From Halalkalibacter suaedae (GTDB lineage: Bacteria > Bacillota > Bacilli > Bacillales > Bacillaceae_D), in contig NZ_JAGKSQ010000007.1 in assembly GCF_017939705.1 (NCBI RefSeq), forward strand, positions 62,001-126,000: a DNA stretch of 64,000 nucleotides, in the 5' to 3' direction. Of the stretch, positions 796 to 9,675 are shown one piece after another. A program made the position numbers and the translations under genes. Each line of letters starts with the position of its first letter. The stretch's first letter is position 1. Below the pieces are notes generated by a model. It saw nothing but the letters and a program-made list of their open reading frames with translations, was not told the DNA's origin and ran no database searches.

Positions 796-2034
796 ATGCA
801 ACAATTCTTTATAGGCATTGCTAATCTATTTCAAATTATTATTTTTTCGGTTAGTATCTATCAAATTATCATCAGTTTGGCTGGTTTTAAGAAACAGAAA
901 GTGGACATGAGAGAAAAGCCTGCTCCAGAAAAGTCATTTGCTATTCTTGTTGCTGCTCATAATGAAGAGCAGGTTATTGCTCCTTTACTTGAAAATCTCA
1001 AAAAATTGGATTATCCCAAGGACTTATATGAAGTCATTGTCATTTGTGATAACTGTACAGACCAGACTGCAGAAATTGTAACAAAGCATGGTGTAAAGGC
1101 AATGGAAAGGTTTGACGAAGATAGAAAGGGCAAAGGCTATGCCATGGAGTGGATGTTGAATCAACTATGGCAACAGGAACGGCAATTTGATGCAATCATT
1201 GTATTTGATGCTGATAATTTAGTTAGCAAAAACTTTCTTCTTGAAATGAATCACAAGCTGATGGACGGTCACCGTGTCATCCAAAGTTATGTTGAAACAA
1301 AAAATCCCTATGATTCTTGGGTTACACTCTCATATGCGATCACATATTGGTACATTAATAGAATGTGGCAGCAAGCTAGACATAATTGGGGGATGGCAAG
1401 CACACTTGCGGGAACGGGAATGTGTTTTGAATCGAATTTACTTAAGGAAATGGGATGGGATGCCACATCGCTTACTGAAGATGTAGAGTTTACCGCTCGT
1501 TGCATTGGTAATGAGGTCTATCCAACATGGGCTAATCAAGCTATTGTATATGACGAAAAGCCGATTAAACTAATGAGCTCAGTTAGACAACGACTCCGTT
1601 GGATGAGGGGACATACAGATTGTGCACGGAGATACATGAAACCACTCTTATTACAAGCCATTCGAACACGTAGGTTTGCTCAGTTTGATGCCGTGATGTA
1701 CTTGTTCCAACCAATCCGGTTCGTTTTTGTTGCAGCTGTGTGGGTGATGTCATTTCTGCAATTAGCTACACCGCTATACACACAGTTTGCATTTCTAAAG
1801 ACGATACCTGATGAAGGTTGGATTATACTCAATATTGCCTTATTTCTACAATTTCCTATAGTGATGTTAATGGAAAGACGACCTTTAAAGTCTTATTGGG
1901 GACTGATCCTTTTCCCTGTATTTCAATTAACTTGGTTCCCGATTACTTTAATGGGGCTGTTCACAAGTAAGAATAAATCATGGAATCATACTATTCATAC
2001 TCGTTCTATCCGCTTAGAGGATATGGAAGGATAA
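796..2034 (+). CDS. Processive family 2 glycosyltransferase, membrane-bound
   Basis: A 412-residue membrane glycosyltransferase with the layout of hyaluronan/NodC/IcaA-type synthases. There is one N-terminal membrane helix (about residues 5-30), a cytosolic GT-A domain (about 45-280) and two or three C-terminal helices (about 300-390). Motifs in order: LVAAHNEE at 51-58, the nucleotide-sugar DAD at 138-140, GTGMCF near 207, the catalytic TEDVE at 227-231 and QRLRW at 265-269 (the QxxRW processivity motif). It should polymerise a sugar from UDP-sugar and extrude it; the sugar cannot be told from sequence. The start ATG is preceded by GAGGAAG at a good distance. The VCBS-repeat protein just upstream is the only obvious partner, and no deacetylase or cyclic-di-GMP PilZ domain is attached. 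Confidence 0.85.
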   Translation: MQQFFIGIANLFQIIIFSVSIYQIIISLAGFKKQKVDMREKPAPEKSFAILVAAHNEEQVIAPLLENLKKLDYPKDLYEVIVICDNCTDQTAEIVTKHGVKAMERFDEDRKGKGYAMEWMLNQLWQQERQFDAIIVFDADNLVSKNFLLEMNHKLMDGHRVIQSYVETKNPYDSWVTLSYAITYWYINRMWQQARHNWGMASTLAGTGMCFESNLLKEMGWDATSLTEDVEFTARCIGNEVYPTWANQAIVYDEKPIKLMSSVRQRLRWMRGHTDCARRYMKPLLLQAIRTRRFAQFDAVMYLFQPIRFVFVAAVWVMSFLQLATPLYTQFAFLKTIPDEGWIILNIALFLQFPIVMLMERRPLKSYWGLILFPVFQLTWFPITLMGLFTSKNKSWNHTIHTRSIRLEDMEG

Positions 2035-2084
2035 ACAAGTTTACTAAGACTTAACGATTTAGCTAACATAGACCCTAACAAGAC

Positions 2085-2323
2085 GAGGCTAGGACAAAAG
2101 TGATTTAACTAATAGCAAATCCGAACAATGGTGGTTGGAGGACGTAAACCGCTCCTGAAATATACTTCGCTTTCCGCGGGAAGCCGGTGAGCCTCCTCGT
2201 GCTTCGCACTGTGGGGTCTCACCTTTGGCTTTTGGGTCCCACAGGAGTCTACGTATATTTCATCCGCTTCGTGATTGCATTATTCGGTATTTCAGTTAGG
2301 TACTTTAGTTATGTCCCAACCTC
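2085..2323. repeat. Family A intergenic repeat, copy 1
   Basis: A 239-bp copy of a repeat seen several times in this window, lying between the convergent glycosyltransferase and DUF421 genes. It begins GAGGCTAGGACA and ends TGTCCCAACCTC, imperfect terminal inverted repeats. Inside, CCGCTCCTGAAATATACTTC is mirrored by TACGTATATTTCATCCGC, and GGTGAGCCTCC is mirrored by GGGGTCTCACC, so either strand can fold into a long hairpin. A 97-codon open frame crossing it is just translation of the repeat. It accounts for most of the gap between 2035 and 2360. Confidence 0.85.
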
Positions 2324-6459: not shown

Positions 6460-6640
6460 TCTTCCCCATTTCATGAATTATTTCTTCTCTCTTCAGTGTA
6501 TATAAGCTTCCTAAAATAGTAAATAGAATGAGAGAAAGCGCTATCATATCTCTACTAGCTATCCCCAAAAATATAAGACTTAGCTGTAATATGTTATAAA
6601 TAAAGAAGAAAAAAGAAGAGGTGAAGATGTTGTCATTCAA
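6446..6640 (-). CDS. Possible small two-helix membrane protein
   Basis: A 64-codon frame with two strongly hydrophobic segments (about residues 8-28 and 31-47) and a charged C-terminal tail. It overlaps the beginning of the MBOAT gene and would also overlap, on the other strand, the first codons of the peroxiredoxin-like gene. Its ribosome binding site is weak; an internal ATG at 6547 gives a shorter alternative. It may be a real upstream partner of the MBOAT gene or a chance frame in T-rich DNA. Confidence 0.3.
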   Translation of the reverse strand: MNDNIFTSSFFFFIYNILQLSLIFLGIASRDMIALSLILFTILGSLYTLKREEIIHEMGKNGAF

Positions 6641-7172
6641 ACTAGAGAACCCCTATGGAGAAAATCAGACACTTGAAACAGTTATACTTAATAAGAGAAG
6701 CATAGTTGTCTTTGTCAGATACCCTGGTTGACCGGTTTGTCGCCAGCTACTTACGCAGTTGCGTAAGCATTATAGCGAAATGACGAAAACTGGCTATCAA
6801 TTAATTGTTGTAGCTCCAGCGAGTGGCGACTTCTTGAAGCAGTTTGATCAAGCATTTGGGCCTTTCCCGTACCCTATTTACGGTGATCCAACTAAATATT
6901 TATACCGTAAAATGGGACATCAGTCGATGCCGAAGTGGAAGTTGTTGATGCAAGCAGGAATAGGATTTATCAAAAATGGTAAGAAAGCTTTCATGCCTGA
7001 TAATACAAGACAAAGAGAGCTTGTCAAAACGGCAATGAAGTCTCAAGATATTTATATTCAGGGTGGTACATGGATATTTAATGAAAATGGCAAAGTTGTC
7101 TGGAGTCATATTGATACAGAGCCCGAAAATCATGCTTCAATTCATGACCTTCTAACTATCATTAAAAAATAG
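6627..7172 (+). CDS. Candidate selenocysteine-containing peroxiredoxin-like protein (AhpC/TSA_2, UxxC)
   Basis: Read through one internal TGA at 6729-6731, this gene gives a 181-residue protein of the AhpC/TSA antioxidant superfamily, closest by eye to the PRXL2/SelU-like branch (AhpC-TSA_2). The thioredoxin-fold strand VVFVRYPG is followed by TGA-Pro-Val-Cys-Arg, so the stop codon is at residue 35, exactly where the first Cys of the family CxxC motif belongs; Cys38 remains. Downstream the frame is intact and conserved-looking (strand LIVVAPAS, FPYPIYGDP, GGTWIFNENGKVVW). ATG 6627 follows GAGGTG at a normal distance. A perfect hairpin lies 25 nt after the TGA. If Sec is inserted the product would be a thiol/selenol redox enzyme; if not, the gene is a nonsense mutant. 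A separate start at TTG 6759 would remove the active site and is unlikely. Confidence 0.75.
6729..6767 (+). promoter_or_regulatory. UGA codon plus candidate bacterial SECIS hairpin
   Basis: The TGA at 6729-6731 is followed by CTTACGC (6750-6756), loop AGTT (6757-6760) and GCGTAAG (6761-6767), a perfect 7-bp stem. The apical loop begins 25 nt after the UGA and has G at its second position. As recalled, bacterial SECIS models require a loop roughly 16-37 nt downstream of UGA with a G in the first two loop positions; this element fits. SelB binding is inference. Confidence 0.65.
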
Positions 7173-7318
7173 TAAGTATTAGTATGGATGTAATATAGAA
7201 GCAATAAGTTACTAGTTGACAGAATAGTAGAAAGTAAAAAATATTGAAACGTGTGCCTAGACTGAGGACGAATCTTAGAAAGTGTACTAATGAATGAACT
7301 TGTAAATGTAAATAGTAA

Positions 7319-7378: not shown

Positions 7379-8709
7379 TTATGAAACCTTAAATTGACTA
7401 ATTTCAACATTCAAGTCATCAGCTAATTGGTATAAGTCTTTTGATGACTCTGAAACAAGCTCGGTCGATGCAAGCTGCTCCTGGCCAGAGGCTGAGATTT
7501 CCTCCGTACTCGCAGCGAAATCCTCGGCTGTATTAGCCATGTTTTGAATCTGGTTTGAGATGGTCTTTGATTTTTCATTTATTGTATCAATGGCAATGGC
7601 TGTATGCTTAAAGCTATCTACAATATTATCGTACGTGATTTTTATTTTGCTAAATGCTGATTCTGTTATTTTGAGTGCATCCTTTTGTTCCTGAATCAAG
7701 GAACTTGAGGTACTAATATTTGTAACAGCAGCATTTGATTTCTCAGTTGTTGTGACAATTAATTCAGTAATTTCCTTTGCTGATTTTGAAGACTGCTCAG
7801 CTAATTTTCTAATTTCCTTCGCAACAACTGCAAATCCTCTCCCTGCATCTCCGGCTCGACTAGCTTCGATCGAGGCATTTAATGCTAGCAAATTCGTTTG
7901 TTCAGAGATTGAGGTACAATGCCACTAACATTTTCGATGACCTCACTTAGCTCTTTAATGGATTGATTAGCTTCAGTAGAAACATTAATATTTTGATCCA
8001 TTTTTATAATTTGTAAATCAATTGTCTTTTGTCCCTCGATCACGGCATCAAGTGAAGCAACTGCCTGATCAGCACCTGATGAAGCTTCATCCGTGATATG
8101 TTCAATAAGCTTTACCATCTCTAACAGCGATTCATTAATATCATTAATGGTTTCTGATTGCTCGTTATTACCAATCGCAATACTATCAATTGTTGAGACA
8201 ACCTGACCGATCGAAATGGCGTTTTCTTCTGTTCTTTTTGTTAAGTCATTAGAATGAGTGGTGACTGTTGATGAAATGTCCTGTAGTCTCATGACCATCT
8301 CCCTCAGTACCTTTCTTGTTTCCCTGAAAGCCAAAGCCATCTGTCCTATTTCGTCTTTTGTCATTACTTTCTCTATAGCTTGTTCATGATCCTCACGTAA
8401 ATCGAGCTTGGATGTTCTTTCAACAATATCAGTCATTGTTAAAATAGGTTTTGAAATTATTTTTCCTAATATATATGAAAGAATAACTCCAATTACTAAT
8501 GAAATAGCTAACCCAATTAAAATAGGAGTTGGAAGAAGGAAGCCTCCTTGTACTGTAGCTACGGCATCAGTAGTCTCTTCAATAGGTGCCGTCGCAGTCC
8601 CGCCCCTCATAACTAATGAACCAATGACATTAATGGATGCAACAATAATTGAATTAATTAATGATAAAAGAATAATTTTAGTAGAAATCTTAGTGTTTGT
8701 TTCCTCCAA
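7379..8709 (-). pseudogene. Methyl-accepting chemotaxis protein, frameshifted
   Basis: Two overlapping frames together make one chemoreceptor. The upstream part (8709-7885) has two membrane helices separated by a short periplasmic-side loop of about 25 residues, a HAMP domain (ISKPILTMTDIVERTSKLDL) and the first signalling helix. The downstream part (7891-7379) has the signalling hairpin ([21 protein letters not shown]) and the return helix. The join falls in a conserved segment: the - strand reads GTACCTCAATCTCTGAACAA, and one extra base after GTA would restore Val-Thr-Ser-Ile-Ser-Glu-Gln. So a single base is missing near 7914. It may be a recent mutation or a sequencing error; no other lesion is seen. 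The small sensing loop suggests a membrane- or energy-state sensor. Confidence 0.85.
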
Positions 8710-8718
8710 GTAAGTAGA

Positions 8719-9675
8719 TTAATTAAGTGAATAAGTCGAATTTAGATTGTATATAGTCCTTCTTTTAGATTGCAATGAACTGATTTTGCTATCTCGCTCT
8801 AATACGTTAAAAAAGGCATCAACAACGTATGGATCAAACTGTGTACTCTTATGCTGTTGAAGTTCATCAAGAACCGAGGTCCAGTCTGCCTGTGTTCGGT
8901 AATTTCTTCTTGATGTCATTGCGTCAAAAGCATCTGCGACAGCCATAATTCTAGCTTCAAGTGGTATTGCATTCCCCTTTAAACCATGAGGATAGCCAGT
9001 ACCATCGAATCGCTCATGATGATATTGGATCATGTTTAAGATGCCGCTCTGTTTAAAACGATGGATATGCTTAACTAAATTAAAGCCTATGACGGGGTGC
9101 TGCTTAATCTGATCATACTCTTGATCAGTTAATGCAGATGGTTTGTTTAAAACGGCTTCTGGAATGCCAATTTTTCCAATATCATGAAGCAGGCCACCAT
9201 AATAAATATTTTCACAAACTCTTCTCGGAAGCTTCATTTCTAGTGCGATCTTTTTTGAGTAATCTGCGACATTTTGAGAGTGAAATGCTGTGTATTCATC
9301 TCTTGAGTCTAGTGATTTTGCTAAACTATTAATAAGGTCAATTGTGCTTTTTTTCTCATTAAAATATTTTTCAAGCAATGTCACAATAAAAGCGGCAGTC
9401 ACAAATGATGTGAACCAATGAAAGAAAAACATATGTAGATTCATATGTGAAAAATTCGGCTCACCTAGAAGGGCAATAAAGCCACTAGAGATCGCTTGGA
9501 TCGATAGCTTCCGAAATGACAATGCAGAAAACGTTAAGATAATAAGATTAATTCCAAAGCTCAAATCTCTGTTATCAAAGAATTGGTTAGCATAGAAGTA
9601 GATAGGAATCATCAGAAGAAATAACCAACGGTAAATATATGTTTTTTCTATTAGTAAAGATAATCTGGATTTCAA
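8719..9675 (-). CDS. Membrane-anchored HD-GYP phosphodiesterase
   Basis: A 318-residue protein with an N-terminal membrane domain (about residues 15-105, four or five helices) and a C-terminal HD-GYP domain. The metal and catalytic motifs are intact: HS at 132-133, LLHDIGKIGIP (HD at 164-165), and HHERFDGTGYP at 219-229 with the complete GYP. The domain hydrolyses cyclic di-GMP, or related cyclic dinucleotides. The start is TTG 9675, preceded by AAAGGAG. It lies 9 bases upstream of the chemoreceptor on the same strand, so the two are probably co-transcribed. Two AAGG half-sites with an 11-bp period lie about 50 bases upstream and match sites at the VTC and beta-helix lipoprotein promoters, which suggests control by the nearby response regulator. 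Confidence 0.88.
   Translation of the reverse strand: MKSRLSLLIEKTYIYRWLFLLMIPIYFYANQFFDNRDLSFGINLIILTFSALSFRKLSIQAISSGFIALLGEPNFSHMNLHMFFFHWFTSFVTAAFIVTLLEKYFNEKKSTIDLINSLAKSLDSRDEYTAFHSQNVADYSKKIALEMKLPRRVCENIYYGGLLHDIGKIGIPEAVLNKPSALTDQEYDQIKQHPVIGFNLVKHIHRFKQSGILNMIQYHHERFDGTGYPHGLKGNAIPLEARIMAVADAFDAMTSRRNYRTQADWTSVLDELQQHKSTQFDPYVVDAFFNVLERDSKISSLQSKRRTIYNLNSTYSLN

Follow-up and report, generated by a model that had tools for sequence, protein, structure and literature searches.

A predicted selenocysteine-containing PRXL2-type redoxin with a conserved bacterial SECIS hairpin in Halalkalibacter suaedae and other Bacillales

The question raised by this locus is whether a TGA codon interrupting an otherwise intact redoxin gene is a stop or is decoded as selenocysteine (Sec). 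In the window, that is, the whole analyzed stretch of 64,000 nucleotides of Halalkalibacter suaedae DNA, the frame from ATG 6627–6629 to position 7169 was open save for a single in-frame TGA at 6729–6731, which corresponds to residue 35 in the context VRYPG-U-PVC. The sequence-only reading had described the frame as broken by this codon alone, which was confirmed, and had placed the terminator TAA at 7170–7172; the position was correct, but the codon there is TAG, and a second stop, TAA, follows directly at 7173–7175. The truncated ORF that it had foreseen from TTG 6759 does exist and is 137 aa long. In the genome (4.32 Mb, 30 contigs, 98.73% complete), the gene is located at G000:C28:68627-69172. 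Its features were as follows.

6618..6623, + strand: Shine-Dalgarno-like GAGGTG before ATG 6627 (by eye from the sequence)
6627..7172, + strand: predicted selenoprotein gene, PRXL2/AhpC-TSA_2-type redoxin, 181 residues and TAG stop (sequence, Pfam, homologues, structure model)
6729..6731, + strand: UGA predicted to encode Sec35, the residue that opens the U-P-V-C site (homologue alignment, dN/dS)
6738..6740, + strand: Cys38, probable partner of Sec35 and sole Cys of the window protein (sequence, codon alignment)
6750..6767, + strand: SECIS hairpin, stem 6750–6756 with 6761–6767, loop AGUU at 6757–6760 (folding, covariation)
6759..7172, + strand: TTG-started truncated ORF of 137 aa, as ordinary gene calling would give (judged not to be the real gene)

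The redoxin gene looks stand-alone. When 79 loci and the window were compared, each neighbor group was confined to 15 loci at most, and the only neighbor that the window had in common with other loci was the minus-strand ORF 8719–9675, found in one locus (L080). A chemoreceptor-type coding stretch adjoins the gene on the minus strand (7379–8709); it is split into ORFs 7379–7891, which matches MCPsignal, and 7885–8709, and the split looks as it would after a frameshift.

Comparison of residue 35 among relatives, one of the checks proposed together with the sequence-only reading, returned TGA at the aligned codon in all 88 rows holding the region (81 distinct 99-nt sequences), down to approximately 30% identity among homologues. 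Neither a Cys nor a Trp codon was found at this site in any of the 88 rows, and the aligned motif across members was RHLGUPxC. The rows represented 87 loci of L027–L114 and the window, with some genes coming from two collections and L046 being the window gene again; L114, a C-terminal remnant without the region, stands outside them. A homologue search (E ≤ 1e-10) detected a homologue in 70 of the 397 genomes of the order, and one TGA was present in 69 of the 70 matches; 66 of these had no other stop, two (G042 and G043) had a TAA at the N-terminal edge before the open frame, and G210 had a TAG. Decayed copies were observed in G210 (L113; a short frame with TGA and TAG) and in G316 (L114; a C-terminal fragment), and both genomes keep SelB. 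No Cys orthologue was found in the order in this search or in one with NF040769. The latter gave 51 matches of at least 64.9 bits, each with one TGA; the matches at or below 50.5 bits were a mix with and without TGA, mostly with partial profile coverage, and were taken as other redoxin families, the active residue having been examined in few of them.

Downstream of the UGA, the window RNA folds into a hairpin with a 7-bp stem that starts 18 nt after the UGA, with 25 nt from the UGA to the loop and an energy of −9.3 kcal/mol. The rules for bacterial SECIS elements (bSECIS), as given in the legend of Fig. 2 of PMC13188914, are a loop of 3–9 nt, a stem of 4–16 bp, a G among the first two loop nucleotides, 16–37 nt from the UGA to the loop, and an MFE ≤ −7.5. 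The window hairpin agrees with all of these rules, with G in the second position of its AGUU loop. Among the 81 distinct sequences, the MFE was ≤ −7.5 in 80 and −6.8 in one, and the loop was AGUU in 79 and AGGU in two. Folding of the window RNA as a single sequence gave a modest signal (z from −1.2 to −3.1), and it is the comparative test that carries the case for the hairpin: in 73 distinct 45-nt sequences, 98.6% of the cells were paired in stem columns 22–28 with 33–39, as against only 15–62% when the stem was slid by 1–3 columns. Both sides had changed at three stem pairs, in 31 cells, and RNAalifold unaided recovered six of the seven pairs; Rfam gave no match around the gene.

The same segment was marked by codon choice, which was nearly fixed among synonyms at codons +8 to +12 after the UGA and, by the same criterion, at no other position between codons −20 and +29. 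The third base of codon +8 was G in 80 of 80 genes, all 77 Ala/Thr codons being NCG (20% and 27% elsewhere); codon +9 was CAG in 80 of 80 (46% elsewhere); and codon +10 was TTG for all 78 Leu (14% elsewhere in these genes), with L113 and L114 left out of the count. It should be noted that TTG 6759 is itself a Leu codon within the hairpin. On its own genome, the hairpin model R1 retrieved the redoxin site (2.4e-15) and 12 weak sites from E = 0.075 upward, and in the five of these that were inspected the UGA was followed by just 5–16 open codons; since R1 misses the hairpin of selD, it cannot count selenoproteins.

The machinery for Sec insertion was searched for in the genome, as had also been proposed, and selA, selB, selC, and selD were all present. 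The tRNA-Sec scored 60.2 bits, above the Rfam cut-off (22 other matches of the same search lay below it), and ARAGORN called it as well, with tca as its anticodon. SelA (562 bits), SelB (358.8 bits), and SelD (407.4 bits) each exceeded their own cut-off, and the four genes lie inside a 9-kb stretch of contig 29. An in-frame TGA is present in SelD itself, in AGUGCKIG, and the first 50 or 60 nt from this UGA fold as an 8-bp stem whose GUU loop lies 33 nt on; a segment of only the first 45 nt folds differently. Thus, a signal of this type is apparently used by a second gene of the genome. SelD and the redoxin were the only predicted selenoproteins found by targeted searches of the window genome; its one formate dehydrogenase alpha match (600.3 bits, cut-off 666.25) was without an internal stop.

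The sel cluster (L026:7660-16420, on G000:C29) contained tRNA-Sec, selB, a GT4 glycosyltransferase, a PhnD/PhnE/PhnC-like ABC transporter, selD, and selA. The glycosyltransferase was a weak match to the selenosugar synthase SenB (72.2 of 300 bits), and the transporter binding protein reached 166.2 of 250 bits for the putative selenate ABC transporter TIGR04553; a function in selenium uptake is possible. Near selC, a gene for a sortase-signal protein (L026:5133-6506), after which a class F sortase gene follows (138.2 of 166 bits), was similar by eye to a gene neighboring the redoxin gene in 13 loci, downstream of it in 12 (e.g., L055, minus strand).

SelB (E ≤ 1e-60) was detected in 179 of the 397 genomes of the order, including all 70 with a homologue (naive hypergeometric 6e-29, relatedness ignored), and the gene was found in none of the 218 genomes of the order without SelB. 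SelB was present and the gene absent in 109 genomes; thus, the redoxin is not the sole Sec user in the order. A selenoprotein had been regarded as notable in a Bacillus-type host; this was an overstatement, as the above frequency of SelB shows that the Sec system is not unusual in the order, although B. subtilis, one of 14 controls, gave no SelB match at E ≤ 1e-60.

Several explanations other than Sec insertion were weighed against these data. If the UGA were a plain stop and the remainder of the gene were decaying, the interruption of the frame would be accounted for, and decay does occur in the family (the truncated G210 with its further TAG and the remnant G316); however, the sequence downstream of the UGA, where degeneracy had been named as the mark of a nonsense pseudogene, was not degenerate but under purifying selection, with dN/dS downstream of the hairpin of 0.02–0.20 (16 printed pairs of close homologues, one a repeat). 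Together with the TGA retained in every row, the covarying hairpin, and the sel genes, this brings the pseudogene explanation close to refuted, and it was rejected as highly improbable. Readthrough of the UGA independently of SelB, by a near-cognate tRNA or with insertion of Cys or Trp, has nothing specific in its favor, although no stop would interrupt the frame if it were decoded in this way; the confinement of the gene to genomes with SelB, the agreement of the hairpin with the SECIS rules, and the lack of any codon for Cys or Trp in the aligned rows led to its rejection, with a minimal probability assigned to it. The short protein from TTG 6759 is what mechanical gene calling gives as the product, but, by the structure model, such a protein would begin halfway along the first helix and have neither the active site nor the first strand. 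In addition, the sequence ahead of the UGA is conserved, and the TTG belongs to the hairpin as one of its fixed codons; this product was rejected as scarcely credible.

The proposal of a selenoprotein is strongly supported by the sel genes, the TGA in 88 of 88 rows, the covarying hairpin, and purifying selection, and it is predicted by computation with near certainty that UGA 6729–6731 is decoded as Sec.

The best Pfam match of the window protein was AhpC-TSA_2 (PF13911; 7.4e-15, 55.8 bits against a gathering score of 27), and AhpC-TSA (PF00578; 1.8e-12) and Redoxin (PF08534; 3e-10) were also above the cut-off. With a profile of 42 members, human prostamide/PGF synthase came first of 14 PDB sequences (1.4e-9), the Sec site being aligned with the active Cys of PGF synthase 9us9 (GUPICR on GCVVCR). 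The AlphaFold2 model, built from 18 sequences with Cys in place of Sec, had a mean pLDDT of 88, and its best fold match was 9usa, the C44S/C47S PGF synthase (E = 1.6e-9, TM 0.69/0.76, 18% identity), with many peroxiredoxins nearly as good; residue 35 of the model is located after strand 24–29 and directly before the first long helix, 36–47. The earlier assignment to the PRXL2/SelU family agrees with the PF13911 match above the cut-off and the match to human PGF synthase, and a PRXL2-like fold is predicted with very high confidence. The accompanying description of the residue as the catalytic cysteine of a peroxiredoxin calls for care: the canonical peroxiredoxin motif, PxxxT/SxxC(U), also given in PMC13188914, is absent in both the window protein (RYPGUPVC) and the alignment, and Sec is first in a CxxC-type site. 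Position 38 was Cys in 71 of the 80 genes and Tyr in nine; thus, the second Cys is dispensable while Sec is kept.

According to the proposed mechanism, SelB with Sec-tRNA-Sec would bind the AGUU-loop hairpin of 7 bp 18 nt past the UGA, and Sec would be inserted at residue 35, where it would be the nucleophile attacking a peroxide or a disulfide. In the window protein, Cys38 would then close a selenenylsulfide with Sec35, a step that is not general in view of the Tyr at position 38 in nine genes, and the selenenylsulfide would be reduced by the cell thiol system, thioredoxin or bacillithiol. The enzyme would have a role in oxidative defense. This explanation as a whole, namely, a PRXL2/AhpC-TSA_2 selenoprotein in which Sec35, inserted by SelB and the hairpin, is the redox nucleophile, is held with high confidence.

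For the activity itself, a peroxidase is predicted with a probability slightly better than even. The enzyme may instead, with Sec likewise inserted, be a ResA/StoA-like thiol-disulfide oxidoreductase or some other reductase of the PRXL2 type and no peroxidase, an alternative given a substantial probability that falls short of even. The position of Sec in a CxxC-type site, the absence of the canonical peroxiredoxin motif, weak matches to ResA in 15 and to StoA in seven of the 42 members, and PGF synthase as the best solved relative point to a reductase, whereas matches to thioredoxin-dependent thiol peroxidase are more numerous (23 of the 42), many peroxiredoxins are nearly equal fold matches, and the partner Cys is replaced by Tyr in 9 of 80 genes.

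Within the family to which H. suaedae belongs, the gene was present in 4 of 41 genomes, namely, the window's own and three of genus g4, whose homologues were 36–37% identical to the window protein with TGA at the same residue. The gene has the same place in G009 as in Alkalihalophilus pseudofirmus OF4 (NC_013791.2), from which we infer that g4 is Alkalihalophilus. Of the 12 further genomes from the window's genus, none had the gene, though 11 had SelB. In the FastTree protein tree of the homologues of the order, the window gene was grouped with families f13 and f4 (support 0.95, 61–62% identity) and not with the homologue from g4, a genus within its own family. This grouping and the absence of the gene from the other 12 genomes suggest that it was probably gained laterally in its genus; no neighbor genes were common across its clade. 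A scan of named genomes yielded 18 loci in the genera Mesobacillus, Neobacillus, Bacillus (B. dakarensis, B. suaedaesalsae, B. infantis, and a MAG), Salipaludibacillus, Alkalicoccus, Rossellomorea, Alkalibacillus, and Alkalihalophilus, and searches of the plasmid collection with the gene and of PHROGs gave no match.

Eukaryotic SelU is known to occur with Sec at this site. The window protein has PF13911, the aligned site, and the best fold in common with PRXL2 (eukaryotic SelU/PRXL2A and the PGF synthase PRXL2B), but it is approximately 18% identical to PGF synthase, a bacterial SECIS closely follows the UGA of its gene, and some members have Tyr for the second Cys. All 42 scanned members matched the SelL-related redox protein NF040769 at E ≤ 0.01, whereas the window protein (81.6 bits) was below the curated cut-off of 120 bits, which was passed by none of 299 genomes of the order; L117, from elsewhere in the phylum, has Sec and exceeds this cut-off (145.7 of 120 bits). 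The redoxin fold and presumed peroxide chemistry are common to the window protein and the Sec peroxiredoxin (Prx), but Sec of the window protein falls at the T position of the TxxU of Prx, and the window protein is without the PxxxT motif.

The catalogue in Table 1 of PMC13188914 (2026) comprises 119 prokaryotic selenoprotein families or subfamilies, and its entries include a Prx-like thiol:disulfide oxidoreductase (PF00578, UxxC/UxxU), a redoxin family (PF08534, UxxC), and a peroxiredoxin-like family (cd02970, UxxS). These share the fold group and the position of Sec in the motif with the window protein, whose family differs from them in having PF13911 as its best match and UxxC or UxxY as its motif. 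The available part of PMC13188914 contains no separate Table 1 entry for a PF13911 UxxC/UxxY family of Bacillales and no mention of Bacillales, and members may be counted there under the PF00578, PF08534, or cd02970 names. For Firmicutes/Bacillales, three selenoprotein families with three selenoproteins were reported in 2006, unnamed in the available part of PMC1794560, and the family of the window gene may be among them. No description of a PRXL2-type Sec redoxin in Bacillales was found in our literature search.

In a sample of the phylum, 19 of 398 genomes matched at E ≤ 1e-6, including the window's own gene and that of G123. Among the weak matches inspected, 14 loci had U at the motif (GFxUPFC in several, RHLGUMLG in L117), four had Cys (L119, L122, L129, and L136), and L132 had neither; L126 was without the region, and L134 and L135 were the same frames as L117 and L118. 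Thus, Sec at this site is common beyond the clade of the order.

Distant phylum redoxins with UGA at the same motif: L117, L118, L120, L121, L123, L124, L125
The same, continued: L127, L128, L130, L131, L133, L137

A redoxin with UGA at the active site (GTWUPNC) was also observed fused in-frame to an MCP chemoreceptor signaling domain in five genomes, which all belong to a single family of the order (in L138, AhpC-TSA 6.6e-32 and MCPsignal 1.5e-25), and the hairpin CAGCTG-GTC-CAGCTG after the UGA was identical in all five.

L154:927-2309, L155:926-2302, L156:831-2315, L157:920-2308, + strand: redoxin–MCP fusions (NF040769 search)
L158, frame 904-2280, reverse strand; also L138: redoxin–MCP fusion

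This fusion may be a selenoprotein chemoreceptor sensing redox state; the literature search found no paper titled on such a protein.

The absence of a Cys orthologue and of copies in genomes without SelB is the basis for a tentative reading, considered possible rather than probable, in which the redoxin forms an obligate-Sec SelU/PRXL2 clade of spore-formers that moves between families of the order as a single gene and has lost the partner Cys in some lineages, in which Sec would carry out the chemistry by itself. As the sole selenoprotein besides SelD in the targeted searches, the redoxin may help to keep the Sec system in the window genome. Spore-formers of this order are usually regarded as mainly aerobic, and the family adds to them a widespread, apparently Sec-only redox enzyme. 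According to PMC13188914, selenoproteins are rarely retained in aerobic bacteria, a statement that SelB in 179 and the gene in 70 of the 397 genomes make testable in culturable bacilli. The active site of the redoxin would be lost in ordinary gene calling. The hairpin of the gene, with its sharp boundaries, is moreover a natural SECIS of a clean kind from Bacillales.
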